Positions 2,613 to 46,950 are shown, counted from the first letter of the stretch. The stretch: DNA of 64,000 nucleotides from Desulfuromonadales bacterium (GCA_013349325.1 DUZX01000008.1:49774-113773), one strand, 5' to 3'. The notes: generated from the letters alone by a model not told the origin. A program made the numbers and translations.

Positions 2613-2637
2613 AACTTGACCCTCCAAAGGAGCCTCT

Positions 2638-3958: not shown

Positions 3959-3968
3959 AGGTGCCGCT

Positions 3969-5030: not shown

Positions 5031-5050
5031 TCCTAAAAACGGCCGTTCAT

Positions 5051-5190: not shown

Positions 5191-5214
5191 AAATGCTTTT
5201 TCTAGGTTGATTGG

Positions 5215-8737: not shown

Positions 8738-9545
8738 CCCGTTGTACGATCAGCACCTCTTCCAGGTGGGCAAGGTTAACAATAGGTCGAATCGATACCG
8801 TCTGAAAGATGCCGTATTCACCACGCTTGACCATGGTTACTTCGCCGATCGGCACCCCTTTGGGAAAGACGCCGCCAATTCCGGAGGTTATCACCAGATC
8901 ACCAACCTTGACATCTTCCTCCCGGGTTGTAAATTCGAGCGAGCAGAGCATTTCACCCTTCCCCTTAACGACGCCCCGGGCGCGCGAACGCTGGATGGTC
9001 GCAGATATACCGCTGGCATGGTCTGTCAGCAGCAGAACCCGCGAACTTTCTCCGGCCACCTTGACGGTCTGGCCGACAACTCCATCGGCAGCCACAACGG
9101 CCATCCCCTCACGCAACAAACTGCTGCGACCCCGGTCAATCACCAGCGTCCTGAACCAGGAAGAGCCATCCTCACCAATAACGGACGCAGCTACGGTCGG
9201 AGGTGTTAAACTCTTTTTCATCTCCAGAAGTCGTTCAAGCCTCTGACGTGCCAGCAAAGCTTCGTTCGCCGCCACCAACCGTGCATTCAGAGAGCGGATA
9301 TCTTCACGCAGGCGCAGATTTTCACCACGGGTATCTATCAGCTGTATATAGTTGTCCCAGACGTCTTCAATACTTCCACTTACATGGGATAACGGGCGCA
9401 GTAACGGAGCCATCAGCGAAAGAACGCCCCGTTCCATAAAGTTTGCTTCTCGATTACGCGGAATATTCAAAGAGAAGATAATCAGGGCGACCAGGACACC
9501 GAAGCCGACCAGCAGAACCAGCAGATATTTTTTCAGTATTCCCAT
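8724..9545 (-). CDS. mreC: Rod shape-determining protein MreC
   Basis: N-terminal TM, coiled coil, 'VVGQTVKVAGESSRVLLLTDHASGISA'. Confidence 0.94.
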   Translation of the reverse strand: MGILKKYLLVLLVGFGVLVALIIFSLNIPRNREANFMERGVLSLMAPLLRPLSHVSGSIEDVWDNYIQLIDTRGENLRLREDIRSLNARLVAANEALLARQRLERLLEMKKSLTPPTVAASVIGEDGSSWFRTLVIDRGRSSLLREGMAVVAADGVVGQTVKVAGESSRVLLLTDHASGISATIQRSRARGVVKGKGEMLCSLEFTTREEDVKVGDLVITSGIGGVFPKGVPIGEVTMVKRGEYGIFQTVSIRPIVNLAHLEEVLIVQRGGYE

Positions 9546-9563
9546 AAGTTACATCTGTTCCGA

Positions 9564-10460
9564 TCAGGGACGCCCACACAGTTCAGTTTCGTTGAATACC
9601 CGCTGAAGATAATCTCGGTAGGAAGAAGAAGGGGTGGCGTTTATAATCTGCTCCATCTTTTGACAGCTGATAAATCCACGGCGCAGTGCAATCTCTTCCA
9701 GGCAGGCGATCTTGAGCCCCTGGCGCGATTCAATCGTCTCGATGAAGTTGCTGGCCTCCAGCAGACTTTTGTGCGTACCGGTATCCAGCCAGGCGATACC
9801 GCGGCCCAGGCGTTCAACCATCAATTTCCCTCGTCGCAGGTATTCAAGGTTCACATCCGTGATTTCCAATTCACCGCGTGGTGAAGGTTTGATCGCTTTG
9901 GCTATATCGACGATATGTTCATCATACAAGTAGAGGCCGGGTACGGCATAATACGACTTCGGACAGAGCGGTTTTTCCTCGATACTCAGCACCTTTCCCT
10001 GTGGATCATATTCGACCACCCCGTAGCGTTCCGGGTCGGTAACCTGGTACCCGAACACGCGTGCGCCACCGTCAAACTCAGAAAAGATGCGGTCCAGATT
10101 CATTTTCCCATAAAAAATATTATCGCCCAGGATAAGGGAAACCGGTTGATGAGCAATGAACTCTTCACCCACCAGGAAAGCTTGGGCAATCCCTTTTGGT
10201 TCAGGTTGAACCTTATAGGAAATGGTGATACCCCAGCGGGAACCGTCTCCCAGCAGCGCCTCAAAGCGGGGTGTATCATGCGGCGTGGATATCAGCAGAA
10301 CATCCTGAATGCCGGCCGCCATCAGTGTTGCCAGCGGATAGTAGATCATCGGCTTGTCATAGACCGGCTGCAGCTGTTTGCTGGCTACCAGTGTCAGCGG
10401 ATAGAGACGACTACCAGCCCCTCCTGCCAGAATGATTCCCTTGGTAATTGCCTGAGTCAT
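9564..10460 (-). CDS. rfbA: Glucose-1-phosphate thymidylyltransferase
   Basis: '[37 protein letters not shown]'. Confidence 0.97.
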
Positions 10461-10521
10461 ACAACGCTCCTCGTTCGTGAGTAAAAAACGTTATGTAGGT
10501 AACATGATACACATTCGCCTG

Positions 10522-11091
10522 TCAAATTGGATCAAAGCCGGTCGGGCTGGAAATCAGACTATCTACCGCTTCCGGCAGTGAATTGCTGACCGCTGAAGCT
10601 GCAGTGCCCCGCCGTTCCTCCTCGACCCCATACCCGGTGCGGACCAGAATAGTGCGGCATCCAACCGCCTGACCGGCAGCGATGTCGGCGTACTTGTCAC
10701 CGATCATAATCGACGACGGAAGGTCAAGGTCATAGCGGCGGGCAGCTTCAATCAACATCCCCGGCAGCGGTTTACGGCACGTGCAGGGGAGCGCATAACT
10801 GCCGCGACCGTCCGGGTGATGCGGACAGTACAACCAGGCATCCACGCGGGCACCAATTTTGTCCAGTTCACGGGCGATATGTCGATGCAGGTTTTCTACA
10901 TCCTCTTCGGTATAGTACCCGCGAGCCACACCGGACTGGTTGGTGACCACAACAACAAAAAATCCGGCCCGGTTCAGGCTCTGTATGGCTTCCGGCACAC
11001 CGGCAATAAACTCGAAGTCATCAATCCGAAACAGATAATCTTTTTCAACGTTGATGGTGCCATCTCTGTCCAGAAAAACCGCTCGTGTCAT
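10522..11091 (-). CDS. gmhB: D-glycero-D-manno-heptose 1,7-bisphosphate 7-phosphatase
   Basis: 'AVFLDRDGTINVEKDY', 'VVVTNQSGVARGY', Zn motif 'CPHHPDG...CTCRKP'. Confidence 0.93.
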   Translation of the reverse strand: MTRAVFLDRDGTINVEKDYLFRIDDFEFIAGVPEAIQSLNRAGFFVVVVTNQSGVARGYYTEEDVENLHRHIARELDKIGARVDAWLYCPHHPDGRGSYALPCTCRKPLPGMLIEAARRYDLDLPSSIMIGDKYADIAAGQAVGCRTILVRTGYGVEEERRGTAASAVSNSLPEAVDSLISSPTGFDPI

Positions 11092-11222
11092 ATCACCCTC
11101 CGCGCTTTTGTAATCATCAAATTCAACCTGCTGATTTATTGAGATATTAGACCAGAGAAGCATTGACAACTACGCATCAAAGACTCTATAACAATGGTCA
11201 CTTTACCCAGGGAGAGCTGTCC

Positions 11223-12275
11223 ATGATCAAGACAAACAATCTGAAAGTAACCGGGATCACACCGATAATCGCACCCACAGACCTGCGCCAGGTATTCCCG
11301 GTTTCCGATAAAGAGCGAGCCTTTATCAGCACAAGCCGTGAGCAGATCAAAAACATTATTCACCGGCGCGACAAACGGTTGATGGTAATTGTCGGTCCCT
11401 GCTCCATCCACGACACGAAAGCAGCGCTTGAGTATGCCGAGCGCCTGACGATTCTCTCGCGCCGTGTCGAAGATCAGTTACTGCTGATCATGCGGGTCTA
11501 TTTTGAAAAGCCGCGTACAACGGTCGGCTGGAAGGGACTGATCAACGATCCCGACATGAACGGCAGTCACCTGATCTCTAAAGGTCTCGGCATTGCCCGT
11601 GGGCTTTTAAGTCGCATGACCGCTCTGGAAGTTCCGGTTGCCAACGAAATGCTCGATCCGATCACCCCGGAATACGTTGCTGATCTGATAAGCTGGGGAG
11701 CCATAGGAGCCCGCACGACCGAATCCCAGACCCACCGTGAAATGTCGAGCGGGCTCTCATTCCCGGTCGGCTTCAAAAATGGCACCGACGGCAACCTGCA
11801 GATTGCGATGGACGCCATGAAAGCGGCTCAGCACCCGCACAGCTTTCTTGGCATCAACAGCGAAGGTCGTGCATCGATCGTTCAGACTATTGGCAACCCT
11901 GACGTACACATTGTGCTGCGCGGCGGTTCCAAAAAAGCCAATTACCATCCCGAGGATATTGCCCACACTGAGGAGTGCCTCAGAAAGCACGGACTGGTAC
12001 CGACTATCATGGTCGATTGCAGCCATGGTAATTCCAACAAGGACTTCAACAAGCAGCCCGAAGTTCTGGCAAGCGTGGTTGAACAGATCCTTGCCGGCAA
12101 TACCTCCATCTCGGGCGTTATGATCGAAAGTAACCTCCAGCCGGGCAACCAGAAAATTTCCGAAGACCGTAGCCTTATGAAATACGGTGTTTCAATAACG
12201 GATGCCTGCATTGACTGGGCTACAACCGAAGAGGTACTGCTGAACACTCATCGTCAGCTGCAAAAGAGAAACTGA
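11223..12275 (+). CDS. 3-deoxy-7-phosphoheptulonate synthase (AroF/G/H type)
   Basis: 'VIVGPCSIHDTKAALEYA', 'RVYFEKPRTTVGWKGLINDPDMNGS', 'VDCSHGNSNKD'. Confidence 0.96.
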   Translation: MIKTNNLKVTGITPIIAPTDLRQVFPVSDKERAFISTSREQIKNIIHRRDKRLMVIVGPCSIHDTKAALEYAERLTILSRRVEDQLLLIMRVYFEKPRTTVGWKGLINDPDMNGSHLISKGLGIARGLLSRMTALEVPVANEMLDPITPEYVADLISWGAIGARTTESQTHREMSSGLSFPVGFKNGTDGNLQIAMDAMKAAQHPHSFLGINSEGRASIVQTIGNPDVHIVLRGGSKKANYHPEDIAHTEECLRKHGLVPTIMVDCSHGNSNKDFNKQPEVLASVVEQILAGNTSISGVMIESNLQPGNQKISEDRSLMKYGVSITDACIDWATTEEVLLNTHRQLQKRN

Positions 12276-31229: not shown

Positions 31230-31702
31230 CCCGATTCAAACTGACCATCTCGGTTCTGACACGTATCGGATTGTTACTCTTTCTTGCGGCTTGCGCGCAG
31301 ATGGGTACCCTGCCGAGTCTGCCCGCATCCCATCCGGAAGCTTTGGCTATCGGCCAGCAGGTTAATTGTGCCGAGTGTCACGAAGACCAGCAGAAGGGTA
31401 CCCTGAAGCCCTACAAAGCCTTCAACCACTCACCCGTTTTTGTCAAAAGTCACCGCTTTTATGCTGCCTCTGATGACCGACTCTGCAGTACCTGCCACAA
31501 AAGCTCCTTCTGCAATGACTGTCATACCAACAAAGTCCAGATTAAACCATCCACAAAGTTCGGCAATCGTCCCGACCGTGAGATGCAGCATCGCGGCAAC
31601 TTCATGACCATGCACAAGATAGAAGGTAAACTCGATCCCGCCAGTTGCTATCGCTGTCATGGCCGCGCCAACAACGAACGCTGTATACAGTGCCACCACT
31701 AA
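31226..31702 (+). CDS. Pentaheme c-type cytochrome lipoprotein
   Basis: Lipobox-like LFLAACA; five motifs CAECH, CSTCH, CNDCH, CYRCH, CIQCH. Confidence 0.92.
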   Translation: MTRFKLTISVLTRIGLLLFLAACAQMGTLPSLPASHPEALAIGQQVNCAECHEDQQKGTLKPYKAFNHSPVFVKSHRFYAASDDRLCSTCHKSSFCNDCHTNKVQIKPSTKFGNRPDREMQHRGNFMTMHKIEGKLDPASCYRCHGRANNERCIQCHH

Positions 31703-31715
31703 GGAGGAGAAAAAC

Positions 31716-33761
31716 GTGATCATGTGCAAAAGTGTTCTCATTATATTTATACTTATGGCTCTCTTTGGATGCTCGAACGGCAGCAACACTTCTATAGTAC
31801 TTGACTCGACCGGTAAACACCCGGCCAACTGGCTTGTCCCTCTCGACGGTGGAAACCATCCGGTAACCTATCTGACCAGTCCGGAGAAATGTTTGGAATG
31901 TCACGGTACCGATTTAAAGGGGGGCGTCAGTAATGTCAGCTGTTTCAGTGCAGACAGAAATGGCATAACATGTCACGCTCAGGGACCTTCCGGGCACCCG
32001 ACTGGCTGGAACAATCCCTCTGCGCACGGAGCGCATGCCAAGGCTGCGGCAACCGGGGCCAATGGGATCGCCTTCTGTAAGAACTGTCATGGCGCGGATT
32101 ATTCAAAGGTGCTCGGCACAAAATCCTGTACCGGATGCCATGGTGTCGCCGCTCCACACCCACCCAAACCCTGGTTTGGCAGTGCCTCGACACATAAAAA
32201 CACCGATACGAGCAACGCACCGGCTTGTGCCGCCTGTCACACAAATCGCGCCAATCTGAGTATCGCCGGAGCAGCTACACTGCCTGCTACTGCTATGCTC
32301 GGCACAACAGGCTGTTTTAATAACACCTTGTGCCATGGCGCCATGGGACATAGCAGTGATCCGCAACCATGGAGTTCGCCTGCCAATCATGGTGCCAGGG
32401 CGATAGCTGAACCCGGTGCTGCCGGAAATTACGGCCTGGCGACCTGTCAGCAATGTCACGGAACGGACTTCAGTGGGGGGAACGTCAAACAGTCCTGTTT
32501 CCCCTGCCACGGTGTCCCGGCACCCCACCCGAAACGTGCCGACTGGACTTTGAAAGCCGGAGTACTCAGTCACGTGGCGGCAGGCGAAGGAAATATAAGC
32601 GTCTGTGTCTCCTGCCATACCACGGGCACTAAAAACCTGGCTGAGCCCTATCTGACCCGCTTTGCCAGCTCACCAGCCGGTTCGTTCGTCAGCACCGTCA
32701 CACCCGGCTGTTTCAATACATCCACCTGCCACGGTGACGTGAGAAAGACTACAAATTGCGACGCCTGCCACAGTACTGCCACCTCGGTTCCCTTCAAATC
32801 GATGGTCGGCGCTACTGCTGCAAGCGACACCAAAGTGGGCGCGCATGTTAAACACCTGAACGCATCGACTCAGGCACCTGCGTATTCATCCAATATCGCC
32901 TGTTCGGAGTGTCACGCCGTTCCTGGCACACCTGCTATTTCCGGGGCCCACCGCAACGGTACTAATGATATCGCTTTTGGAACAGTGGCAAAAACCGGCT
33001 CTTTAATACCGACCTATGCTGCCTCAACCGGCGTCTGCGCCAATACCTACTGCCATGGCACAACCCTGACCGGAGGCGGCTCAAACAAATCACCAGTCTG
33101 GAATCAGACTAATTATCTGGTAGCAGGATGCGCAACCTGTCATGGGTATCCACCGACTTCGGTTCGCAATGGGGCAGCGACACATTCAACCAGCAGTTCC
33201 TGTTCGGGATGTCATGCCCACGTCAACGCGACCAATAACGGCTTCAGCGATCCGAGTAAACATATTAACGGCACCATTGAGGCTTCCGGTGCTGCGTCAC
33301 ACGTTTTTCCAAATCCCGGTTCCTCACACAAAGGATCATCAAACGGTACCGGATGTCTGGGATGTCACGCCTTTGGAAGCAGCACCAGCGGCTATCCTGT
33401 CACCTCCGGCACACCTCCTGACTGTCGTGCTTGCCACCTGAACGCCAACCCCGGCACCGACCCGCAATGTTCAGACTGCCACGGCTCTGCAGCTAACAAT
33501 AACAGTGCAACGCTTGCAGGCCGACCGGTTGCAGGTGGCGCAACATTCCCCAACCGACCGGGGCAGCACAACAGAAGTGAACATGTCGGTCGCGCCTGCA
33601 CGGTCTGTCACCCTTTTACATCAGGAAGTCCGCTTCATGGCTGGTCAAACAGAACAAAAAGTACAGCTGCACAGGTTGGTGGTGCAGGCACAAGCATCAA
33701 TAGCTGGAATCCTGTGACCAAAAGCTGTTCTCCCGTGTGTCATGGCTCTGAAAAATGGTAG
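31716..33761 (+). CDS. Large multiheme c-type cytochrome, probable lipoprotein (CxxxxCH/CxxCH family)
   Basis: RBS aaggagga then GTG (31716) or ATG (31722); lipobox 'LMALFGCS'; 15 CxxCH plus CX3CH, CX4CH, CX5CH (x2) and CX9CH variants. Confidence 0.92.
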   Translation: MIMCKSVLIIFILMALFGCSNGSNTSIVLDSTGKHPANWLVPLDGGNHPVTYLTSPEKCLECHGTDLKGGVSNVSCFSADRNGITCHAQGPSGHPTGWNNPSAHGAHAKAAATGANGIAFCKNCHGADYSKVLGTKSCTGCHGVAAPHPPKPWFGSASTHKNTDTSNAPACAACHTNRANLSIAGAATLPATAMLGTTGCFNNTLCHGAMGHSSDPQPWSSPANHGARAIAEPGAAGNYGLATCQQCHGTDFSGGNVKQSCFPCHGVPAPHPKRADWTLKAGVLSHVAAGEGNISVCVSCHTTGTKNLAEPYLTRFASSPAGSFVSTVTPGCFNTSTCHGDVRKTTNCDACHSTATSVPFKSMVGATAASDTKVGAHVKHLNASTQAPAYSSNIACSECHAVPGTPAISGAHRNGTNDIAFGTVAKTGSLIPTYAASTGVCANTYCHGTTLTGGGSNKSPVWNQTNYLVAGCATCHGYPPTSVRNGAATHSTSSSCSGCHAHVNATNNGFSDPSKHINGTIEASGAASHVFPNPGSSHKGSSNGTGCLGCHAFGSSTSGYPVTSGTPPDCRACHLNANPGTDPQCSDCHGSAANNNSATLAGRPVAGGATFPNRPGQHNRSEHVGRACTVCHPFTSGSPLHGWSNRTKSTAAQVGGAGTSINSWNPVTKSCSPVCHGSEKW

Positions 33762-33862: not shown

Positions 33863-35986
33863 ATGCATATCAATAAAATCAAACTCACATTCGCACAGGC
33901 AAACGAATTCAAGGAGGGCGACCTTCAGGTTGGCGGAACAATTGATGAACAAATCAGGTCGGATGCGAGAAAAGAAATTTCTGCCCTGCGAATCAGCGAG
34001 ATTTCAAAGCTCGTTTTTGTTGAAGACGCCATCACAGAAGCGCTTTTCCGCTCACTCAACCGGCAGCTGCTGAGTGAAATTTCCCACCTGACAATCGGCG
34101 AAATGAAGAGCATCGTTATAGGCGAATCCGGCGCTTCATGGGTTAAAAAATTCTCTGCCGGATTGTCGAGCGAAGTTATTGCGGCACTCGTAAAAACAAT
34201 GAACAACGAAGAGCTTTCTTCCGTTTCCCGTTCAATCTTCAATAGCCTGCCTGATGCAACCCAAAAAGGTCCGGTTGTTGTCGGCTCGGCCAATCATTTT
34301 GGCAGCCGTATCCAGCCGAACAGCCCCGGTGATTCTGAAGAAGAGATTCTCCTGTCTGTCCTTGAGGGCCTTGCCTTTGGCTGCGGCGATGTCATCATCG
34401 GGCTCAATCCCGCCAGCGACGATATTGAAACAATTATCAGAACTGAAAAACTTTTGCAGCGAATTGTCGAACGACTGCAACTCCCAACCCGCTTTTGCGT
34501 CCTCTCCGATATGGCAAAACAGTCTGCCGCCCGTTCACTGACCAAAGTAGACGTCGGATTCCAGAGTCTGGCAGGGACCTCAACAACGCTCGTAGGCATG
34601 CTGGGTCTTGATGTTGACGGACTGCTGGAATTATCGCACGGTTTCAGCGGCCTGTATTTTGAAACCGGTCAGGGTTCCGAAATAACCAACGGCACGGCTG
34701 AAGGCGTCGACATGGTGACACTTGAGTCACGCTGTTATGGTCTGGCGCGCTCTGTACAACAGCAGTGCAGCGGAAAATGGATGATCGTCAACGATGTGGC
34801 CGGATTCATCGGCCCGGAAGTGTTTCGAAGCGGGCACCAACTTGTACGGGCATGCCTTGAAGACACCGTCATGGCCAAGCTGCACGGCATCACCATGGGT
34901 CTGGATGTCTGCTCAACGTTCCACATGGGCATATCCCCGTCGGAGCTTCAGAACCTGACTGAGGAGCTGGCCACAACAGCCGCTCCTGCCTATCTGATGT
35001 CAGTTGCCGGAAAAGCCGACCCGATGCTCGGCTATCTGACCACATCCTATCGGGAACACCCGCGACTCAGAATAAAAACCGGCAAACAGTTTTCCAGCGT
35101 CATGCAGGAACGGCTATCAACACTCGGCGTGATTGATGCTGATGGCCTCGCCACAGGCGCCCCCGAATGTACGGCCATGCTGTACGCGCGATATATGAAA
35201 GCAGGGGGAGATTCCCGGGCTATTGAGGCCATCATGGAAGAATGTTTCAGAAAAATTACAGCACTGCAGGAAAAAGGGTGTGATCTCGGGTATGGCTTCG
35301 GGCCTGATTTCAGCGACCCGCCCTCTGTCTCCACACGGCTTGCGGCCATCTACCGGCATGCCAGGAGTGCCCTGTACGCCACGCTTGACGCGGCTGTTAT
35401 TCGGGACTGCTCTCCTCGGCATATCGACATAGCCTCCCAATCAAGCGACCGGGAGGAGTATCTTGTACATCCGGCTTCGGGGGAACGAATCTGCTTGACA
35501 GATTACGCCGCCCTCTTCGAACTCTCGGCATGTTTTAAAGTTGCCCCGCAGATTTTGATCGTTGTTTCTGACGGTCTTAACGCCGATGCCGTCAATGAGA
35601 ATCTGCGTAGCATCCTGCCCGGCCTGAAATGGTCATTACAAGAAGCGGGCTATCATGTATCAGAAATGGACATTGTCATACGGAACGGTCGCGTACGGGC
35701 CGGATATCACGTAGCGCAGTTGCTTGAGCCTGAAATCCTGATCCACCTGATCGGCGAGCGGCCGGGCTCGGGCCTGAATCTGCTTTCAGCGTACATGACC
35801 TACGGAAAACTACCAAGTGGTCTACTCCGCTGGAGCCCAGACATGGATCATTCGTGCACAACAGCACTATGCAGCATACATCCCAAAGGGAAATCAACGG
35901 AATCGGCAATAGCCGATATGGTCACAACCGTCAGACGCATGTTCGAATCGAAATGTTCCGGTGTTTCCCTCGGCGCGCTGACATAA
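33863..35986 (+). CDS. Ethanolamine ammonia-lyase EutB-EutC fusion
   Basis: EutB: 'ANEFKEGD', 'LYFETGQGSEITNGTAEGVDMVTLESRCYGLAR', 'GFIGPEV'; EutC: 'ASQSSDREEYLVHP', 'ILIVVSDGLNADAV', 'NGRVRAGYHVAQLL', 'LIGERPGSGLNLLSAYMTY'. Confidence 0.92.
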   Translation: MHINKIKLTFAQANEFKEGDLQVGGTIDEQIRSDARKEISALRISEISKLVFVEDAITEALFRSLNRQLLSEISHLTIGEMKSIVIGESGASWVKKFSAGLSSEVIAALVKTMNNEELSSVSRSIFNSLPDATQKGPVVVGSANHFGSRIQPNSPGDSEEEILLSVLEGLAFGCGDVIIGLNPASDDIETIIRTEKLLQRIVERLQLPTRFCVLSDMAKQSAARSLTKVDVGFQSLAGTSTTLVGMLGLDVDGLLELSHGFSGLYFETGQGSEITNGTAEGVDMVTLESRCYGLARSVQQQCSGKWMIVNDVAGFIGPEVFRSGHQLVRACLEDTVMAKLHGITMGLDVCSTFHMGISPSELQNLTEELATTAAPAYLMSVAGKADPMLGYLTTSYREHPRLRIKTGKQFSSVMQERLSTLGVIDADGLATGAPECTAMLYARYMKAGGDSRAIEAIMEECFRKITALQEKGCDLGYGFGPDFSDPPSVSTRLAAIYRHARSALYATLDAAVIRDCSPRHIDIASQSSDREEYLVHPASGERICLTDYAALFELSACFKVAPQILIVVSDGLNADAVNENLRSILPGLKWSLQEAGYHVSEMDIVIRNGRVRAGYHVAQLLEPEILIHLIGERPGSGLNLLSAYMTYGKLPSGLLRWSPDMDHSCTTALCSIHPKGKSTESAIADMVTTVRRMFESKCSGVSLGALT

Positions 35987-36408: not shown

Positions 36409-36443
36409 TGTAACAAAAAAAATTCCATAACGTCAATTCATCC

Positions 36444-36482
36444 AAAAAGGGTATGGAGACAAACACTCCATACCCTTTTTGC
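36444..36482. terminator. Bidirectional terminator hairpin
   Basis: aaaaagggtatggag-acaaaca-ctccatacccttttt, perfect stem with A and T tracts. Confidence 0.88.
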
Positions 36483-36508: not shown

Positions 36509-36808
36509 TCAATTATCGTTATTGTCACCCCAGAGTGCCATCCACTGCTGCTGCGGAGTGCGACTGTCACCATACTGGACGATGACACCATCCTCCCTTT
36601 GATAGGAGCAGGACCAGCCCGGTTTATCGGCAGCAGAAAAAACCGGATACTCGCCTGAGTGATCAAGTGCTTTGTACGGAGCAGAATATGTACCGTCGTC
36701 CTTGGGGGGTGGACAGCGCACATCCCCTTGATACCATGTATATTCTTCGCAATGAACCGCTGTCGCAATCAATATCAGTAAAAAAACGACAATACAGCCT
36801 GTTTTCAT
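36509..36808 (-). CDS. Small exported hypothetical protein
   Basis: Signal peptide 'MKTGCIVVFLLILIATAVHC'; directly downstream of the caspase gene. Confidence 0.65.
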   Translation of the reverse strand: MKTGCIVVFLLILIATAVHCEEYTWYQGDVRCPPPKDDGTYSAPYKALDHSGEYPVFSAADKPGWSCSYQREDGVIVQYGDSRTPQQQWMALWGDNNDN

Positions 36809-36837
36809 ACGCTCCTCCCTGAAAAAGAATAAATATC

Positions 36838-39800
36838 TCAATCCCGCAGCAGCTTAAAGCGCCCCTTCGCCTCTAGTTTATCCGTACTCAGTACCGGACT
36901 TTGCGACACATTCTGTCCCTTTGCGGTATCCTCCACCAGCGGTTTCAGGTAACGGTAGACCGCATCGATGTCACCTTTTCCCTCTTTGATGGCTTTGAGG
37001 AAATAGTACGTGAAGACACCATGTTCTTTTTCCTCGAACGAGGTTGAAATCTGGGATCCCTGAGTCGAGGCGAGAATAGCCATTCCAGGCGGAACGACCA
37101 GGGTGTCCGCCATCAACACCAGCGGTCGGGCCCCCTTGGCCAGAACACTTCGGCCGCCACTTCCCGAAAAGCATGAATCCATTACCACAATCACTTCGGC
37201 CGCTTTGGCTGCACCGAGCTTTTCATACAACCGCTTGATCGGATAGCCGGTATCATTCAGATATGACGGATCACCGTCATAGGGAACGATAGAGGCTTCG
37301 CCGGTGGCCGGATCCGGGGCGCCATGACCGGAGTAGTAGAAGAAAATGCGTGACCCCGACTTGACCCTGTTCGGCAGCCAGCTTTCAACCGATTTCCTGA
37401 TGGCCGAAAGCGTAGCGCGTTCGTCAGCCAGAAACTCGATATTGCGCTCGGCAAAGCCGAGCGAGAGCAAATAGGCTTTAATCGAACGGGCATCATTATA
37501 GGCAAAATCGGACTTCGGCACATTCTGGTAGCGCTCTATTCCAATCACCAGCGCCAGATCCCGATCATTAAACGCGCGCCGGGTAACGGCCAGCAGCGGA
37601 ACCATGCCAATGTCATCCTGTGCTGCGGCGACGGGTGCTGTCTCACGCTCTTTTACGGTGACTAGTCGGACCTCAGGCGCCTCCTTGTTGAGCACCAGCT
37701 GCAACTGCGGCTTAATGTTAAATTGAGATCGCTCCTCGGTTATCTGGAATGCCACCGGGAGTATTTTTGGCCCCTTGTAACGCTGGGTAACGGCCATCGT
37801 AAAGCTTGCCCGCTTGCTCTCACCCGGCTTAAGCAGCCCCAAAGCGATCTCACTCTCTCCAAAAAGTTTCACCTGTGGGTCACTGCTGTCGAGCCGTACC
37901 ACAACGCCACGAGCAAAACCTTTACCGATATTTTGAACCGTGAGGGTTACGTTACTTTCTTTGCCTTTGGCAACAACCCGTTTTCCCTCTGCGTCACTTA
38001 TCTCAATGCGCGCAACCTGCAAATCCGGCGGGATCAGCGCTTTGAGACTGAAGTCCATCAGAACCGGTTGCGCATCGAAGCCACCCGCTTCCAGAGCGGC
38101 TATCTGCAACCGTATTTCTCGTCCCGGCACCCCTTCTGCTGCAGAAATCGGTACATCAACGCTTCGGCTCTGGTTCGGACCAATATCACCGACCGGCATT
38201 CGCTCAACGAACGAAAGTGTCGTCGACAGAGCAGTTGTTCCCTCAGCGCGCAGAGCAAGCGCAACGCCTTCAGCGCTACCACTGCCGGAGTTTCGCACGA
38301 CCGCCCGAATGCTGCCCTGCTCACCAGCATCAAGTGCATTATTACCTGACGGTTCAACGAGCGTCACCGAGACTATCTCCAGATTAGGCGCGGCTGTGCG
38401 CTTGCTGGCGACCACGGGGAGAGCCGGCTGCAGCAGCGGTGATTCGGTCTGCAGCGCAACGCCCGCTACCTGCCTGCCGAACGGAAAACGTCCACCGCTG
38501 ACCCGGTCCACCAGCGTCCCGTTCACCAGCTCTCCCCGCTGCGGGTCGTGATAGCGCAGCAAGCCATTGAACTGCAGTGATTCCCGGCGAGCTGCCAACT
38601 CCTGTGCCATCCGCTGGGGGACCGGTATCGAAATCGGTACTCCTCCCAGAGTCGCGTGAAAAACGTGCCGGTCAGCGTCATAGCGCCCCAGATCTCCCGT
38701 CGCACGAAACGGATAATACTGCCGCTTCATTTTTTCTTCCTGCTGTTCAAGCTCTGTCGCCAGCGCCGAGCGCCTGACCGCATATTCTCTGCGCAGCGCC
38801 TGCGCTTCACTCTTGGCCAGCCTCAGACGCTCGGCATATTCGCGACTGTTTTCGAACTCGCTCTTTTGCGGATAGAGAGCCTTGATGCGCTCATCGCGCT
38901 CCTGATCAACCGTTTTGAGTGCATCACCGTGAGCACCGCCGGATGCAGCCAGGGAGATAATGCCCGGCAGATTCCAGAGGTGCACCTGTTTGTCTTCGCC
39001 GGCAATCGCAAGACCGGTATTGTCCGGGCTGCATTGAACAGCCAGCGGTTCATTCTTTTCATCACTGATAGCATACAGCTCGCGATTTGAACGACTGCTC
39101 CAGAATGCGGTCCGTTTTTTACCGGCTGAGACAAGAAGCGCTCCATCGGCGCTAAAGGCCAGACCGACTATGTCATCCTGCTCTCGGGGCAACTGCCGCA
39201 GCTGAGATTTCCCGAACAGGTCCCAGATCAGGATGGTCTGTTTATCTTCAACAGCCGCCAGGCGTGAACCATCCGGACTGAAGGCCAGCATACGAATTTC
39301 CTTCTGAAAACCTTCCAGCGATTTCGTACGAATCCACTGCCGCACATCCCAAATAGCGACCTGTCGATCTTTACCGGCCAGAGCCAGTTGATCGCCATTC
39401 ACGCTAAAAGCAATGCTGAGAACATCATGATCGCCACCCGATAGCGTTTTAATCACCGCTCTGTCAGCACGAGTCTGATCCTCGTTCTTTTTTGAATCGT
39501 CCTTGCGCTTCAACCAGCTGAAATAGCCACTGCTGTCCCCGGGTTTTTCGGATGTGGCTGTTGTCGATACGTTCAGACTGTCCAGATTCCAGACCACAAC
39601 ACCCTTATCTACCGCAGCGGCCAGGACGTGCCCTCTGCGGCTGCACGCCAGCGACTGGACATCTTTTTTAGCACGGAAACCGGTTATGTACGAGCCGGTT
39701 GCTGCGTTAACCAGATGAATATTCTCCCCCTTGGTCGTCAAAGCCAAAACATCCCCACTACCACAAAAAGAGAGATTCGTAACCCGATCAGGCAGATTTT

Positions 39801-40098
39801 TGATCGACCAGGCCTGCTCCCCGCTCTGAAGATCCCAGGCGATCAGCGACTTGTCGTCACCGCCACTGATCAGACGTTTACCGTCCGGTGAATAGGCCAG
39901 CGCCAGAATTTTTGAAGTGTGACCGCTTAAGGTTTTGTTCTCCGTGATCAATTGTTCGTAGGCAAGCGGAATCAGCAGTGCTGCGGAGGAAGCGGGGGAA
40001 TTGGTCAATTTCTTTTTACCCGGCCTCTCTGCGGATACTCCCGAGTTTGGCAGAAATGAGATCAGCAGTACAGCCAGCAGTATCTGTTTCAGTATCAT
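36838..40098 (-). CDS. Exported WD40-repeat / CARDB / caspase (peptidase C14) protein
   Basis: Signal peptide; WD40 repeats ('SGHTSKILALAYSPDGKRLISGGDDKSLIAWDLQSG'); CARDB-like segments; C-terminal caspase 'ALVIGIERYQNVP...FFYYSGHGAPD...VVMDSCFSGSGGR'. Confidence 0.92.
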   Translation of the reverse strand: MILKQILLAVLLISFLPNSGVSAERPGKKKLTNSPASSAALLIPLAYEQLITENKTLSGHTSKILALAYSPDGKRLISGGDDKSLIAWDLQSGEQAWSIKNLPDRVTNLSFCGSGDVLALTTKGENIHLVNAATGSYITGFRAKKDVQSLACSRRGHVLAAAVDKGVVVWNLDSLNVSTTATSEKPGDSSGYFSWLKRKDDSKKNEDQTRADRAVIKTLSGGDHDVLSIAFSVNGDQLALAGKDRQVAIWDVRQWIRTKSLEGFQKEIRMLAFSPDGSRLAAVEDKQTILIWDLFGKSQLRQLPREQDDIVGLAFSADGALLVSAGKKRTAFWSSRSNRELYAISDEKNEPLAVQCSPDNTGLAIAGEDKQVHLWNLPGIISLAASGGAHGDALKTVDQERDERIKALYPQKSEFENSREYAERLRLAKSEAQALRREYAVRRSALATELEQQEEKMKRQYYPFRATGDLGRYDADRHVFHATLGGVPISIPVPQRMAQELAARRESLQFNGLLRYHDPQRGELVNGTLVDRVSGGRFPFGRQVAGVALQTESPLLQPALPVVASKRTAAPNLEIVSVTLVEPSGNNALDAGEQGSIRAVVRNSGSGSAEGVALALRAEGTTALSTTLSFVERMPVGDIGPNQSRSVDVPISAAEGVPGREIRLQIAALEAGGFDAQPVLMDFSLKALIPPDLQVARIEISDAEGKRVVAKGKESNVTLTVQNIGKGFARGVVVRLDSSDPQVKLFGESEIALGLLKPGESKRASFTMAVTQRYKGPKILPVAFQITEERSQFNIKPQLQLVLNKEAPEVRLVTVKERETAPVAAAQDDIGMVPLLAVTRRAFNDRDLALVIGIERYQNVPKSDFAYNDARSIKAYLLSLGFAERNIEFLADERATLSAIRKSVESWLPNRVKSGSRIFFYYSGHGAPDPATGEASIVPYDGDPSYLNDTGYPIKRLYEKLGAAKAAEVIVVMDSCFSGSGGRSVLAKGARPLVLMADTLVVPPGMAILASTQGSQISTSFEEKEHGVFTYYFLKAIKEGKGDIDAVYRYLKPLVEDTAKGQNVSQSPVLSTDKLEAKGRFKLLRD

Positions 40099-40136
40099 CG
40101 CAATCTCCCACGTACAACAATGTTTCTGTAAACCTC

Positions 40137-41006
40137 TTACTTCACCTTCTGGAGCTTCGGCTCGATACTATAAACCGCCACCGCCTCGCCCCAGTCAACC
40201 GGATCGAGCTGATTGAGTTTACGCGCCAGATCACCTACCAATCCAGTGGAACGGGCATCAAAAACCTTGAACATCCCTTCCGAAAAGCCCCGTTCCAGCA
40301 AGATCTCCTTATGCCGGGTGGCGATGATTTTAATTTTTTCACTGGAACGGGTTTCCGTCATGCCGGGTAATGCCTGCGCTCGCAGTTTTACCGGAAAAGT
40401 ATCCGGCGGGAACACTCGGCCTACATCACCTTTAACAAAGTTATTCTGCTCAAGCGAGTTGGGGAAGAGCAGTGTGACCGAATTATCGGCGCCGATCGAA
40501 AAAATGTGCACATAGCAATCTACATTCGTCTGATACAGGATCCTGACTTCGTCACCATCCTGCAGAATTGGTTTGGAGATATCCAGCTTGATGTTGATCC
40601 CCTCCCCTTCCTGCGGGTAGACCGGTTGCACGAGGGCCTTCAGTTTGACCCGATAGAGATTGGGGTCATTCCTGTCGCGCTCCTCCTGTAGAATCTGTAC
40701 TTTGTCAATCCAACCCCGCACGCGGGCGTAGGTAAATTCTTCGGCCAGTTCATTGTTGATCACCAGAGAGCTGGATCGGACAAAAGTGCCGACCGCCTCT
40801 TCGACCGCCTTGCGTTTGGCCTCGTTGCGGGCCCGCTCCATGACCTCTTTGGGAGGATCATACTCACTACCAGCCGCCTCGCCAATGGCTTCGACCCAGA
40901 CCGGAGCGTTGGTTACGGGAACATCCAAAGCTTTGGCAACAGTTGGCACTGTTGCCATGAGTACGAACGAGACATAGATGACACTATTTTTCAGAAAGCC
41001 AGACAT
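40137..41006 (-). CDS. Exported DUF4384-like protein
   Basis: 'LQDGDEVRILYQTNVDCYVHIFSIGADNSVTLLFPNSLEQNNFVKG'; signal peptide. Confidence 0.82.
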   Translation of the reverse strand: MSGFLKNSVIYVSFVLMATVPTVAKALDVPVTNAPVWVEAIGEAAGSEYDPPKEVMERARNEAKRKAVEEAVGTFVRSSSLVINNELAEEFTYARVRGWIDKVQILQEERDRNDPNLYRVKLKALVQPVYPQEGEGINIKLDISKPILQDGDEVRILYQTNVDCYVHIFSIGADNSVTLLFPNSLEQNNFVKGDVGRVFPPDTFPVKLRAQALPGMTETRSSEKIKIIATRHKEILLERGFSEGMFKVFDARSTGLVGDLARKLNQLDPVDWGEAVAVYSIEPKLQKVK

Positions 41007-41065
41007 ACTTTGCTCCCATCAATCGGCAGGTATTTATACCATCGGAACAACGCAGAGATAATAAG

Positions 41066-41968
41066 CTACCGCACAATCACTACCCGCCCTTTTTCCAGAT
41101 AATTATTGCCGTAACGGAGGGTTTCCTCAAGCGTGGCCGCATCCTGGGGAGCGATCATAATCCGGTTGTCTGCGGTAACCGCCTCGGCTGAAATTATGAC
41201 CGGATTTGCCCCAGCAGTTTCCGTAATTCTGGCCTGCTCCAGAGAATCGGCATAGCGCACGATGCCGTAGGTCCTTACTATTTCCGGTGCAACCCGTCTG
41301 ACACCGTACACCAGAACGCTTTCCCCTTTTTGAACAGAGACGACCACCGGCAATAGCACCCGTTCAAAGCGCTGACCGCTCAGCAGCAGAATAGTAGCGG
41401 TCGCCGGACGAGCTCTGTCGAAGAACGCCTGTTCCCGTGGCGACGAAAATGTTGGCATGGAGCCTGTGGAACGGCCATCATTCTGGCTCGCGAAGCGATC
41501 AAGACCGAAGGCTGAAACCAGCGCCCCCTTGCCGCTGCACTCTGCCGAACGTCCATCAAGACAGAGCCGCATAACCACCGTCGCTACGGGAGAGCCATCG
41601 ACCATATTTACATCCTGTTTTACAATCAAAGCGCCCCTGACAACCCCCTCAATCCGTGTTCTGCTGGCAACATCCCGTTGCAGCGAACCGTCAATGGTCG
41701 TCTGCGTGTCAATATGAATCCCTTTAATGGTTTCCAAAAGAGCGCGCTGGGCATCAATTTCGGCGGCACGTCTGGCATTCAGCAGTGCCTTATTTGGCGC
41801 CATTCCCCGGGGAGCCGTACCATAACCGGTTGAGGTGATAAAACCACTACTCCAGTCTACACTTCCCTGACCGGCTAAGACCGACGACGGTGCAGCACAG
41901 CAGACCAGCATCAGAACAATAAATAGCATTTTGAGCATCCGGATCAGTTTCACAAAGATTCCTTTCAC
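41066..41968 (-). CDS. Exported LPP20-like protein
   Basis: 'TGYGTAPRGMAPNKALLNARRAAEIDAQRALLETIKGIHIDTQT...' pattern; hydrophobic leader; overlaps the upstream gene by 4 bp. Confidence 0.65.
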   Translation of the reverse strand: MKGIFVKLIRMLKMLFIVLMLVCCAAPSSVLAGQGSVDWSSGFITSTGYGTAPRGMAPNKALLNARRAAEIDAQRALLETIKGIHIDTQTTIDGSLQRDVASRTRIEGVVRGALIVKQDVNMVDGSPVATVVMRLCLDGRSAECSGKGALVSAFGLDRFASQNDGRSTGSMPTFSSPREQAFFDRARPATATILLLSGQRFERVLLPVVVSVQKGESVLVYGVRRVAPEIVRTYGIVRYADSLEQARITETAGANPVIISAEAVTADNRIMIAPQDAATLEETLRYGNNYLEKGRVVIVR

Positions 41969-43056
41969 AGATCACCAGATGTTACATTTGTCACACCGAA
42001 CGATTCGTCAATCAAGGTTACACGGGCATCAAAAACCTTGGGCTGCAGGAAATCGGTAACATCGGCATCAACAAGAGTCATGTTCACCTTCTGGCGGATA
42101 ACCCTGTCTGTACGGGCATCTATGCGTGAGTAGATCACCCTGCTGAAACCCTGGCAATCATCAATCCGAGGCAGAGCCGGAAATCCGATAGTCAGCGACT
42201 TCCGTTTCGGATCGGTCGACTTTATATCAACAATCCAGGCTGCCACCATGTTGCGGCTCTGGGCATCAGCTTTTTGACAAGCCCAGAGGATACTGCGCGG
42301 CAGTGATTTTCCTGAGCCGGGCTCAATCGTGAGTAACCGTGCCTTGATCAACAGACCGTCCGATGGCACTTCAAGGAGTTTTTCCAGGCCGAACGGCAGA
42401 GCGCCTGAGTCCTTACGCTCATAGGTACTGCGATTGATCTTTTGAAGTTTATAGGCAACAACCAAGCCGTCCCCCTCCGTTCCACGACGGGCCTGAGAGC
42501 CGGCTTCCGCTACTGAAGTTGCCGTACCAACCGCATGGCTGGCTCCCACATTAATACTGGCTTTATTGTTTTTTTCATCACTGATTTTGAAGTTCGCCAG
42601 CCGTAAGGCCTCTGTGACATAGGGGACATCCAGCTCGAATGGAATATCGGCAAATGTTACCGGTGAAATAATTTCAAGACCGGCCAGCTTTGCTTTTTCA
42701 ATACTGCCCCCCTGAATACCGAATTCACCCTTTAAAGGCAGGGCGGTCGGCGTTGCTCCCAGCGCCAGGCCAAGGTTATAGGCGTAATCCTGTTGTACGT
42801 TACTGAAAGAGCGGTCTTTTTTAACCCTGATTTCATCGGCCCCTGCCTCTTCAACCGGTCCGAATTGCTTTGACCAGGCAGCGCCAATAAAATGCCGGTC
42901 AATCGGCTTTTTTGCAGGTACATAATCGTTTTCCGTAAGCCCGGAAAGTCCCTTGTTGTGCGTTTCAATGGCACTACCGCCGGTGCTGACACAACCGCTA
43001 ATACTCATTATGAGCACCGCAGCAAGCGCTGTTTTTTGCAACATTATGATTTTCAT
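41965..43056 (-). CDS. Hypothetical lipoprotein
   Basis: Lipobox 'LIMSISGCVSTGG'. Confidence 0.7.
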   Translation of the reverse strand: MKIIMLQKTALAAVLIMSISGCVSTGGSAIETHNKGLSGLTENDYVPAKKPIDRHFIGAAWSKQFGPVEEAGADEIRVKKDRSFSNVQQDYAYNLGLALGATPTALPLKGEFGIQGGSIEKAKLAGLEIISPVTFADIPFELDVPYVTEALRLANFKISDEKNNKASINVGASHAVGTATSVAEAGSQARRGTEGDGLVVAYKLQKINRSTYERKDSGALPFGLEKLLEVPSDGLLIKARLLTIEPGSGKSLPRSILWACQKADAQSRNMVAAWIVDIKSTDPKRKSLTIGFPALPRIDDCQGFSRVIYSRIDARTDRVIRQKVNMTLVDADVTDFLQPKVFDARVTLIDESFGVTNVTSGDL

Positions 43057-43103
43057 CAGGAACTCCATCCATTTCCGTTTATTGATTCAGCGTGAATTAG
43101 TAG

Positions 43104-44396
43104 CTACTGGACCGGCTGTTGATACTGTTGCGTTGGCACCTGATACTGCGACGGTTGCGATGGATCCGGTGGAACCGACTGCTGATACGGTGACGATTGT
43201 GTCGGATATGTCACCGGTGGCGGCTGTTGATACTGTTGAGGCGGCACATGATACTGTGACGGCTGCGATGGATCCGGGGGAATCGACTGCTGATACGGCG
43301 ACGATTGTGTCGGATACGTTACCGGTGGCGGCTGCTGATACTGCTGAGGCGGCACCTGATACTGTGACGGCTGCGATGGATCCAGGGGAACCGACTGCTG
43401 ATACGGCGACGACTGATCCGAAGGAGGGGGCGATTCCTGCAGCATCAGCGGCTGATCAAAAACAGAGGGATCTTCCTGTGGCGGAAGAGCAGCCGATGGC
43501 TGTTGATCCGTTGCTGCTGGCATGCTGTTCTGCAGTTCCTGAATTTGAGCGAGTTCTCTCGGTGCACCCTTGAGAACACAGGAAGCACTCTGCTCTTTCG
43601 AGGTATTGCCGGCAGAATCAACCGCTTGGGCAATCACCCGAAAGGTGCCGCCACCGAGATCAAATGACTGGCTGGTCCCCTCCCACACCTTACCGAGACC
43701 ATTCAGTGACTGCAAACCGACCAGCATTCCCCGGCTGTCAAAAACCCTGAATTTCACCTCACGCAGCCCTTTGTCATCAGTTGCTTTGGTCGAGAATGTG
43801 ACACTTTCGGGCCCCATCACATTCACCTTTAGTGCGCCGATACTCGGTGCAATATCGATCCGATCCATGACCACCAGCAGTTTGTCGATCATGTCTCCTG
43901 CCCGGGCAACACCTGACGGCTGCGGCCCTAACGCCATACCGGTCTTGAGATTTTCCCGACCCCAGTTGTCGTCACTTCGTACCGGCTGGCTACCTGCAAA
44001 CGCCGAACCGGCTGCCGGCGTAACAGAAACCTTGCCACTGAAAGCTGCACTTTTCTGCCTGAGCTCATCTTCCAGCTGAACAACATAGGGGATACCGTTC
44101 TGGGAATAATGCTGTTCAGCCTGCAGCTGAACCGTGACGGCACCCTGATAACCTCCGGGATTCCGATGGTTGTCAAATTCATCGACCGCCACCTCTTTTG
44201 TTTCACGTCCGGCAGATATCACAACTTTCAGCACCGGGTTAAGTGACTGCCACTCCACCGTAAAGTTTATGAAACGATCGAGGTACAGGGCGTCCAGTCT
44301 GGTTACATCCATCTGGCCGGCCGCAAGCGCACAGCCTGATGTTGCAAACAAAAAACAGACCGTAAAAATACAGTATTTTAGTGTATAAAGTGACAT
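43104..44396 (-). CDS. Exported protein with Ig-like segment and Pro/Gln-rich C-terminal tandem repeats
   Basis: Signal peptide from MSLYTLKYC; 'EVKFRVFDSRGMLVGLQSLNGLGKVWEG...VIAQAVDSAGNTSKEQS'; C-terminal 36-aa repeats. Confidence 0.72.
   Translation of the reverse strand: MSLYTLKYCIFTVCFLFATSGCALAAGQMDVTRLDALYLDRFINFTVEWQSLNPVLKVVISAGRETKEVAVDEFDNHRNPGGYQGAVTVQLQAEQHYSQNGIPYVVQLEDELRQKSAAFSGKVSVTPAAGSAFAGSQPVRSDDNWGRENLKTGMALGPQPSGVARAGDMIDKLLVVMDRIDIAPSIGALKVNVMGPESVTFSTKATDDKGLREVKFRVFDSRGMLVGLQSLNGLGKVWEGTSQSFDLGGGTFRVIAQAVDSAGNTSKEQSASCVLKGAPRELAQIQELQNSMPAATDQQPSAALPPQEDPSVFDQPLMLQESPPPSDQSSPYQQSVPLDPSQPSQYQVPPQQYQQPPPVTYPTQSSPYQQSIPPDPSQPSQYHVPPQQYQQPPPVTYPTQSSPYQQSVPPDPSQPSQYQVPTQQYQQPVQ
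43107..43412. repeat. 108-bp tandem repeat (about 2.8 copies) inside the coding sequence
   Basis: SSPYQQS(V/I)P(L/P)DPSQPSQY(Q/H)VP(P/T)QQYQQPPPVTYPTQ, two full units plus a 30-aa partial. Confidence 0.9.
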
Positions 44397-44641
44397 TTTT
44401 CGCACGACACGAGAGGAGAAAGTCGTGACACCATGACGTATTCCAACCATATCAACGTTATCAAAGCTAATAAAATAAAACATTTATGTCTCCATAAAAT
44501 AAAATTCCTATTTGCTACCATTTTTATAAATTACTGATAGCATAAAATTAATAAAAAAGGTATATACATTTGGAATGGCACACAATTGAATTGTGTACAG
44601 CTGTTCTACTAAATTTGCAGCACACTAAAGGAGAGAATATC

Positions 44642-46006
44642 ATGAGAAAAAGTACGGCCCTGATTCTGGCACTTTCCGTCTTTATTGCAGCAAGCTGCGT
44701 AAATGAATCATATGCATGGAAACCTTCACCACCGCCACCACCGCCTATTACTATTCCGACACCTCCGCCCCCACCGCCACCGCCCGTTATTCCACTGCCG
44801 CCATTCCAGATAAACAATGCATCGTTCCTCAAACATCCGGGCACATCAATTGAGTCTGCTCGCAGTACCGGCTGTATCTCAAACAGCGATGTTTTACAAA
44901 TTCGCGGTACAAACGTTAACCTTGCAAAAAGCTTTAACGTTGACGGTGGTCAGGTAACTGCTGCGCGTTTACCCGGTACAAGCGATTGCAACCTGAACAA
45001 TTGTTTTGCTCTCAGCGTCACAACCGTACCCGGGACATCTCCCGGTCAGCGCACGGTTGCACTCACCGCTATAGATGGTCGTGTAATCCGGACAAATTTT
45101 CAGGTCACTCCGGCCGGTAACCGCTGTGACGTACCTGCGCCAAATGTTCCCGGAGTACCGGTGACACAACAAATCCCGCCGCCTCCAATGCAATTACCGC
45201 CGATTAAGACACCGCCTCCGATACAATTACCGCCGATCAAGACTCCGCCTCCGATAGTACTCCCACTGCCGCCGCCCGCACCGCGCAAGTGCACAACAGG
45301 GTGCGACGTGAACAGAAATGACCGGGCTCTGATCTTCCTGAACAATACTGCAGCAGCCGGTGACAGGAACTACCAGCTTTTGTATCAGTTTCTGGAACGG
45401 AGCGGCAAAGCGGTTGTATCTGCAGAGCTAGGCCCCATGTATAAGAACATCATCGCACTTGAAGGTGCCAATGCAACATCCGGCAACTTCAAACAGAGAC
45501 TGGCAGAACTTGAGAATGATCCCAAAGTCAAGGCAATTGACCTTGTTATCTCTTTGCATGGTAATCCCAATAACATTTTGTTCCAGGACACAGAGATGCC
45601 AGTGAGTAATCTCGCTGCAGACATAACTAATGAGCGGGTGCGGACCTGCCGTGGCGACCAGGCATGCATCAATCAGAAGAAGCAGAAGTTGAGGGTTGTC
45701 TACTCAGCAGCCTGCTTCGGCGAATCGCATTTGGATGGATGGCTGGCGGCAGGATTTGATGCTGCTGCTGGTTCTCATGACGTCCATACTGACAGTGCTG
45801 CAAGTTTTCCGACCTTTATGAATACCTGGAGGAGCGGCTATTCGTTCGCAGAATCGGTCAACAGAGCTAACAGCGCCGACAGACAGCGAAAGTACGATGC
45901 CTGGGCACGGTCGATAAACCGGGACTGGTCAAGCGCAAACAGCCAGAAAAGCGTCAAGGGCAACTCCAATGTTGACCCCGGTCGCTTGATGATCTGGACA
46001 AAATAA
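44642..46006 (+). CDS. Exported Pro-rich protein with putative clan-CD (caspase-like) cysteine peptidase domain
   Basis: Signal peptide; PPPPPP stretches; C-terminal 'KAIDLVISLHGNPNN...KLRVVYSAACFGESHLDGWLAAGFDAAAGS' matching hydrophobic-strand+HG and hydrophobic-strand+AC pattern. Confidence 0.65.
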   Translation: MRKSTALILALSVFIAASCVNESYAWKPSPPPPPPITIPTPPPPPPPPVIPLPPFQINNASFLKHPGTSIESARSTGCISNSDVLQIRGTNVNLAKSFNVDGGQVTAARLPGTSDCNLNNCFALSVTTVPGTSPGQRTVALTAIDGRVIRTNFQVTPAGNRCDVPAPNVPGVPVTQQIPPPPMQLPPIKTPPPIQLPPIKTPPPIVLPLPPPAPRKCTTGCDVNRNDRALIFLNNTAAAGDRNYQLLYQFLERSGKAVVSAELGPMYKNIIALEGANATSGNFKQRLAELENDPKVKAIDLVISLHGNPNNILFQDTEMPVSNLAADITNERVRTCRGDQACINQKKQKLRVVYSAACFGESHLDGWLAAGFDAAAGSHDVHTDSAASFPTFMNTWRSGYSFAESVNRANSADRQRKYDAWARSINRDWSSANSQKSVKGNSNVDPGRLMIWTK

Positions 46007-46026
46007 CGCCGGAAAAGGAATGCTAA

Positions 46027-46950
46027 ATGAATAAAGCAACTATACTCTTTTATACACTTATGGCCGGTGTGCTCGTGACCGGTGTCTGCGAATCACACGC
46101 ATGGAGACCGCCCTCACCGCCGCCGCCTCCACCAATTAACATTCCGGCACCTCCGCCGCTGCCGCCACCGCCTGTTATTCCACTGCCGCCATTTAGAATT
46201 GACAGCACCTCGTTCCTCAGACACCCCGGCGCCTCGATCGAGTCTGCACCAAACGGGTCACAATGCTATGCCAACATTGACTGGCTCAGGATCCGCGGAA
46301 CGAATGTGAATCTCGCAACTGACGTCAGAATCGAAGGTGGTCCTGCTCAGTTTGAGCGCCAGATGACGTCAGGTGATTGCAGCCTGAACAACTGCCTCGG
46401 ACTGTATGTAACCATTTATCCGGGAACACCTCCCGGTCAGCGTACCGTATCACTCAAAGCACTAGACGGCCGCGTGATCCGGACGACGTTTCAGATCACC
46501 CCGCCAACCGGTCGTTGCGACGTGCCTGATACGCGTCAGGGTGGCGGTAACTATCAGCAACGTTCCGTAGGAGCACCAACGCCGACACCAGTGCCAATAG
46601 CACCCCCGCCAGTAACCCAAACGGTAACAACGGCATACAAAGGGTGTCAATACGGCCAGACGACACTGACAGGTCAACCAAATTTTACCATCAGCAGCAC
46701 TCAGAGCCTCAAGGTGTCAGTTTCTTTTAACTCAAACTCATCACCCTGCTATTGCCCGAGCGGAATGTGTACACCACCGGCATCCGGTAGTCGCACATGG
46801 ACCTTACGCAACAGAAATGGATCGGCAATTTCAGTCCCCTGGAAGATCGGCGACACAACTGTTCCCAACGTCCCGCCGGGATCGTGGAAGATCGAACTGA
46901 ACGAAGGCGCCACCCCGCCGGGCAGTTATTCGGTTTTCTATACACCCTGA
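46027..46950 (+). CDS. Exported Pro-rich protein, paralogous N-terminal domain to the preceding gene
   Basis: Shared '(I/F)xIxxxSFLxHPGxSIESA', 'LRIRGTNVNLA', 'PPGQRTVxLxAxDGRVIRTxFQ(V/I)TP', 'RCDVP'; different C-terminus. Confidence 0.75.
   Translation: MNKATILFYTLMAGVLVTGVCESHAWRPPSPPPPPPINIPAPPPLPPPPVIPLPPFRIDSTSFLRHPGASIESAPNGSQCYANIDWLRIRGTNVNLATDVRIEGGPAQFERQMTSGDCSLNNCLGLYVTIYPGTPPGQRTVSLKALDGRVIRTTFQITPPTGRCDVPDTRQGGGNYQQRSVGAPTPTPVPIAPPPVTQTVTTAYKGCQYGQTTLTGQPNFTISSTQSLKVSVSFNSNSSPCYCPSGMCTPPASGSRTWTLRNRNGSAISVPWKIGDTTVPNVPPGSWKIELNEGATPPGSYSVFYTP

Follow-up and report, generated by a model that had tools for sequence, protein, structure and literature searches.

The run of six genes at positions 36509-44396 of the window (the whole stretch of 64,000 nucleotides analysed here) raises the question of whether an exported caspase-type protein and its five neighbours form one functional unit, and what such a unit would do. 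A first-pass annotation of this DNA, whose host is probably a relative of Geobacter and Geomonas judging from its named relatives, described the run as an ordered and probably co-transcribed module that ends in the caspase and may carry out proteolysis in the envelope or periplasm. Our ORF calls agree with it on six minus-strand genes (O1 to O6; Table 1), in the same order and at the same coordinates, with spacings from O1 to O6 of 35 bp, a 4-bp overlap, 59, 38 and 29 bp; the array does not, however, end in the caspase, which is the fifth gene of six. This close spacing, together with a terminator-like hairpin beyond O6, makes co-transcription of O1-O6 probable, as had been proposed. A promoter scan found no convincing sigma-70 promoter (15 promoter-like sites versus 9.7 +/- 3.3 in shuffled sequence), and the G+C content of the operon genes (0.49-0.55) does not depart from that of the window (0.53).

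Table 1. Coordinates of the genes, catalytic residues and neighbouring features discussed in the text.
Feature	Position	Strand	Description
D1 and its 307-aa neighbour	44570-46950	+	two exported proteins, divergently transcribed
D1	44570-46006	+	478 aa
O1	43104-44396	-	430 aa from ATG 44396; exported, Sec-type N-terminus read by eye
O2	41965-43068	-	lipoprotein; lipobox ISGC read by eye
O3	41066-41968	-	GTG start, overlaps O2 by 4 bp; exported, LPP20-like; Sec-type N-terminus read by eye
O4	40137-41006	-	exported; SHS2/FlgP-like domain (about residues 36-130) and Ig-like DUF4384 domain
O5	36838-40098	-	1086 aa; signal sequence, WD40 propeller, CARDB repeats, C-terminal caspase (Peptidase_C14)
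Catalytic His925 of O5	37324-37326	-	SGHG motif
Catalytic Cys976 of O5	37171-37173	-	DSCFSG motif
O6	36509-36808	-	99 aa from ATG 36808; small protein, last gene of the run
Terminator-like hairpin	36443-36481	-	stem of 16 pairs, A and U runs at the base; -30.5 kcal/mol including flanks (z = -8.4); 3' of O6
EutB-EutC fusion	33863-35986	+	one 707-aa ORF
Multihaem cytochrome-like protein	31659-33761	+	Cytochrom_c3_2 and GSu_C4xC__C2xCH matches

Both flanks of the run hold plus-strand genes. Homologs of EutB and EutC, the large and small subunits of ethanolamine ammonia-lyase, are usually encoded by separate genes; here they are fused in a single ORF, both halves of which score below their NCBIfam cutoffs, and which adjoins the gene for a multihaem cytochrome-like protein. 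On the other side, the two divergently transcribed exported proteins have N-terminal regions that are 55% identical over 194 aa, and neither has relatives in 57 related genomes. D1, the longer of the two, contains SLHG near residue 330 and SAAC near residue 382, reminiscent of clan-CD proteases; with no profile or PDB match, it was not accepted as a second such protease.

The caspase is intact in sequence. Pfam identifies the WD40 propeller (E = 9e-32), the CARDB repeats (2.5e-11) and the Peptidase_C14 domain (3.9e-17; 63.2 bits against a cutoff of 21.4) of O5, the N-terminus reads by eye as Sec-type, and both members of the His-Cys dyad are in place (H925, C976), so that the exported WD40-CARDB-caspase of the first-pass annotation is confirmed at the level of domains and catalytic residues. 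Asp974, two residues before the catalytic Cys, is also present; in metacaspases this position is associated with a preference for basic P1 residues, and it is the only sequence sign bearing on cleavage after Arg or Lys.

Its neighbour O4 likewise has a Sec-type N-terminus by eye, and combines a DUF4384 domain (Pfam E = 4.9e-17) with an N-terminal domain whose FlgT_N match in Pfam is sub-threshold. An AlphaFold2 model built from 39 sequences (pLDDT 82.7) places a beta-rich, Ig-like part after a strand-helix-strand-strand domain, with residues 81-87, close to the position of the FlgP hairpin, falling below pLDDT 50. The whole model returned no Foldseek match at E <= 0.001, and Foldseek support for an SHS2-like domain is weak (Tip-alpha, probability 1.00 over 97 columns, E 0.05); the O4 profile matches FlgP-type lipoproteins (best E = 1.2e-4). 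We did not file O4 as a member of the FlgP family, as its N-terminus is a signal peptide and not a lipobox; a simple heuristic scan found a signal peptide in 61 of 68 O4 proteins and a lipobox in one. Structure prediction, which had been suggested for every product, thus gave a model for O4 and was of little help for O2, whose single-sequence AlphaFold model has a pLDDT of 31.

Judged from gene neighbourhoods, the recurrent pair formed by O4 and the O5 caspase, rather than the six genes, is the conserved unit. We searched gene by gene in 57 related genomes and in 276 other genomes of the class (277 with the window's own), and found full-length O4 in 10 of the 277; in all 10 the retrieved stretch also contains a caspase ORF. 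The O4 profile was also searched in 394 other genomes of the phylum; when 17 stretches retrieved from among its hits were added to the class hits, a caspase ORF was present on 27 of 28 O4-family stretches from these Desulfobacterota samples, mostly adjacent to O4. Scanning genome contigs with the O4 alignment gave 80 named loci, whose hosts include Geobacter-like bacteria, Syntrophaceae and related groups, Nitrospirota, Nitrospinota, Deferribacterota and a few others; Geomonas sp. Red32, a cultured laboratory strain, has the pair (L189 and L234). A caspase occurs in 61 of the 79 O4-bearing named loci, typically across a gap of about 10 bp. Among 49 loci with adequate flanks it lies within 5 kb of O4 in 36 (on the same strand in 32 of these) and within 200 bp in 28, where the 1-9 caspases per genome would lead one to expect such proximity by chance in about 0.3-2.6% of cases. 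The association of DUF4384 with caspases, which the first-pass annotation had mentioned, is therefore stronger than could be seen from the sequence alone. At the remaining 18 of 79 loci no caspase was found and the neighbours, where read, are unrelated genes; O4 therefore has some use alone. Of the 79 loci, 20 have two or more caspases beside O4. The literature searched, beyond whose reach most subscription papers lay, contained no description of an exported caspase/O4 pair, and the pairing across several phyla has apparently not been described before.

The caspases at O4 loci share export signals and an intact active site while differing at their N-termini. By a crude signal-peptide and lipobox heuristic, 74 of 86 carry one or the other (52 lipobox, 22 signal peptide), whereas among 623 other ORFs the share is 29%. 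None of the 97 O4-associated caspases compared has lost His, Cys or the Asp two residues before Cys; the catalytic His is also conserved in 21 of 21 other caspases. N-terminal modules among 56 scanned caspases, the window's included, comprise ankyrin (24), PDZ (7), S41 (4), CARDB (4) and WD40 (3), and one Geobacteraceae caspase (L057/L248) has Sel1-like repeats by eye. On a caspase tree, the label 'O4-associated' requires 5 changes, compared with 19.6 under shuffling, where none of 500 came out as low, with 95 of the 97 in one part and same-branch caspases without O4 making up 7 of 102 tree rows; the tree was made by a quick method, has some long branches and includes only 21 caspases without O4, all from the same class, so that we regard this clustering as support rather than proof.

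Two further arrangements were seen at these loci. In some O4-linked proteins (loci L189-L268) the caspase is joined in one chain to PDZ and S41 domains, the latter of the tail-specific protease type, which places two protease domains in one exported protein. At L055:11561-14816 and at L190, the closest relative of the caspase is followed by genes for a FecR-domain protein and a CHASE2-guanylate cyclase, a possible signalling link from FecR/CHASE2 to an envelope caspase.

O1, for which an alternative in-frame ATG exists at 44483, consists of a conserved N-terminal region of about 280 aa, Ig-like by a weak Pfam match (its only one), and a Pro/Gln repeat tail of about three 36-aa units, encoded by 2.8 tandem copies of a 108-bp unit with a 91% match; this agrees with the earlier description of a Pro/Gln-repeat protein with an Ig-like segment. 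Its last 150 residues contain no Lys or Arg, which may reflect low-complexity bias. Homologs of O1 keep the N-terminal region and swap the tail for an SGL/Vgb-type propeller, a Laminin_G domain, STIG1-like sequence or almost nothing. O2 has relatives about 60% identical within the genus, with no significant Pfam match for the protein and no PDB match for its profile. O3 likewise has no significant Pfam match, and is called LPP20-like from cross-matches among the profiles built in this analysis.

O6 has no significant Pfam match either. The ORF caller's alternative TTG start at 36841 is less likely, because AGGGAGGAG lies before 36808; the protein is probably exported, though a cleavage site is not evident by eye. 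With the lipobox of O2 and the Sec-type N-termini of O1, O3, O4 and O5, the claim that nearly all products carry a signal peptide or lipobox holds by eye. Orthologs of O6 occur in 22 of the 57 relatives at other genomic places; O6 is therefore probably outside the system, and we dropped it as a module member.

The distribution of O2, found in 11 of the 277 genomes, shows that O1-O2-O3 is a separate module, usually without a caspase. Seven of the 10 other O2 genomes (L065, L066, L128, L130-L133) have genes of the O1 and O3 types close to O2, in the order O2-O1-O3 or O1-O2-O3 and sometimes with an insertion, with no caspase there; the module therefore does not need one. Elsewhere, L064 has O2 and O1 and no called O3, and the short contig L129 has O2 and an O1-type match. 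The L064 stretch (2557-12045) continues past its O2- and O1-type genes with genes for a FlgT-like protein, a DUF4384 protein and a two-partner secretion pore of the ShlB/FhaC type.

O2 and full-length O4 occur together only in the window's genome and in G228, a weak co-occurrence (2 of 277 genomes; hypergeometric p = 0.05). In G228, a distant genome, a single contig (L123) carries a caspase gene and LPP20-type, O4, O2, O1-type and O3-type genes, all on the same strand in a span of about 7.5 kb and in changed order, and this clustering is the sole independent sign that the modules O1-O2-O3 and O4-O5 belong together. Between O4 and O2 on that contig (L123:8145-9285, minus strand), a reading frame resembles, by eye, an LPP20-type start with TPR-like repeats behind it. 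We thus dropped the six-gene order as a conserved unit, since relatives hold two separate modules and O6 elsewhere. Scattering of the orthologs, which the first-pass annotation had named as telling against its single ordered module, is found in part: the modules stand apart in relatives, yet are clustered, reordered, in L123.

Our leading explanation, held with moderate confidence, is that the locus is a composite operon in which an envelope caspase pair (O4-O5) has been joined to a surface module (lipoprotein O2, LPP20-like O3, and O1 with its exchangeable tail), and that the caspase probably processes or polices surface proteins. As O5 carries a Sec signal and has kept its His-Cys dyad, we predict that it acts as a protease of the caspase type in the periplasm or at the cell surface, where it would cut after Arg or Lys like metacaspases and orthocaspases, its WD40 propeller and CARDB repeats selecting the target. 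O4 would bind O5 and either keep the protease in the envelope or control it there. The occurrence of DUF4384 as an accessory domain in cyanobacterial orthocaspases suggests such a direct partnership. Because the same kind of O4 adjoins one to several caspases with differing N-terminal modules, O4 may be a shared holder and these modules interchangeable recognition parts. Most probably the system would process or shed surface proteins such as O1, or control their quality, with O1 and O2 as candidate substrates. Gene layout, export signals, the conserved active site, the recurring link between O4 and caspases and the division into two modules are read from the sequences, whereas proteolysis, the basic P1 preference, binding of O4 to O5 and the substrates are predicted. 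The first-pass idea of an envelope or periplasmic proteolytic module survives as the most likely reading.

The same locus could have arisen by fusion of two unrelated operons, with O4-O5 a real envelope protease unit and O1-O2-O3 (and O6) mere neighbours sharing its transcript. We consider this rather unlikely, even though most genomes bearing either module have O1-O2-O3 alone or O4-O5 alone, O6 lies elsewhere in relatives and O2 and O4 co-occur so weakly, since L123 belongs to the only other genome of the class sample with both O2 and full-length O4, and chance proximity (about 0.2%, taking 10 kb out of a genome of 5.3 Mb) hardly accounts for their clustering there with O1 and O3 in another order.

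Two other explanations change the role of the caspase itself. It might be a suicide or anti-invader effector of a conflict or programmed-death system, triggered through the repeat module in the manner of cytoplasmic caspase systems whose recognition domains vary: the combination of swappable repeat modules with a constant caspase resembles the organisation of EACC1/EACC2 (PMC8195603), and O5 matches a PADLOC caspase model at 3e-20, as well as one HEAT/ARM-type model. Against this, the proteins carry export signals, the six-gene run contains no NTPase or nuclease gene, PADLOC finds no full defence system in the window, where the other five genes match none of its models, and O5 falls below the curated cutoff of the EACC1-associated caspase model NF047832 (74.3 versus 140 bits), so that we regard a conflict role as improbable. 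A structural complex, in which O4 (and O3) would form FlgP-like rings under the outer membrane with the caspase as a scaffold part, appears if anything slightly less probable still. The model for this is the protease-derived PflC of the Campylobacter flagellar motor, which has protease and PDZ domains and docks beneath FlgP rings (PMC12222027); PDZ domains occur on some O4-linked caspases, and O4 itself matches FlgP-type lipoproteins; the catalytic residues, however, are kept in every O4-associated caspase compared, which argues for enzyme activity, O4 proteins mostly have a plain signal peptide and not a lipobox, and the neighbourhoods that were read showed no recognisable flagellar genes next to the pair.

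Returning to the composite operon, a wider and more tentative proposal, which we consider possible and somewhat doubtful, is that the pair represents a widespread envelope caspase system of several phyla, in which caspases that are exported or are lipoproteins, and whose recognition modules can be exchanged (ankyrin, WD40-CARDB, PDZ/S41), would be controlled by one SHS2-DUF4384 partner outside the cytoplasm, where high calcium could keep them active. If true, bacteria would use caspase-type proteolysis to keep watch over their envelope. Bacterial caspase homologs are often discussed as cell-death or immunity proteases; an exported branch with intact residues, a defined partner and swappable targeting modules offers a system that can be tested and that lies outside the cytoplasm. 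For DUF4384 and the SHS2-like domain that accompanies it, partnership with a protease becomes a likely setting, and the six-gene array can be seen to be assembled from separate modules.

Several known systems share parts of this organisation. FecR-CHASE2 sensor operons (PMC5192318) are approached at L055/L190, the closest relative of the pair, where FecR and CHASE2-cyclase genes follow the caspase; no such genes adjoin the operon in this window. The SHS2-like fold is common to the envelope proteins FlgP, Lpp20 and FlgT (PMC12222027), and the N-terminal domain of O4 joins them by profile match; unlike them, O4 carries a signal peptide where they have a lipobox, and it has an extra Ig-like DUF4384 domain and caspase neighbours. 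EACC1/EACC2 (PMC8195603) share the pairing of a constant caspase with a variable recognition domain, whereas O5 is exported and fails the NCBIfam EACC1-caspase cutoff, and the EACC partner domains were not detected here. A 2012 survey noted metacaspase operons with cell-surface functions, with DUF4384, CARDB and ankyrin absent from its main text (PMC3501461). DUF4384 and WD40 are known accessory domains of orthocaspases, DUF4384 in those of cyanobacteria (PMC8283722, PMC7475262), and orthocaspases and metacaspases (Peptidase_C14) have, like O5, the HC dyad and an acidic residue two positions before the Cys. Unlike them, the O4-linked caspases are exported or lipoproteins, are encoded beside a separate SHS2-DUF4384 partner, and have ankyrin repeats as their commonest N-terminal module.
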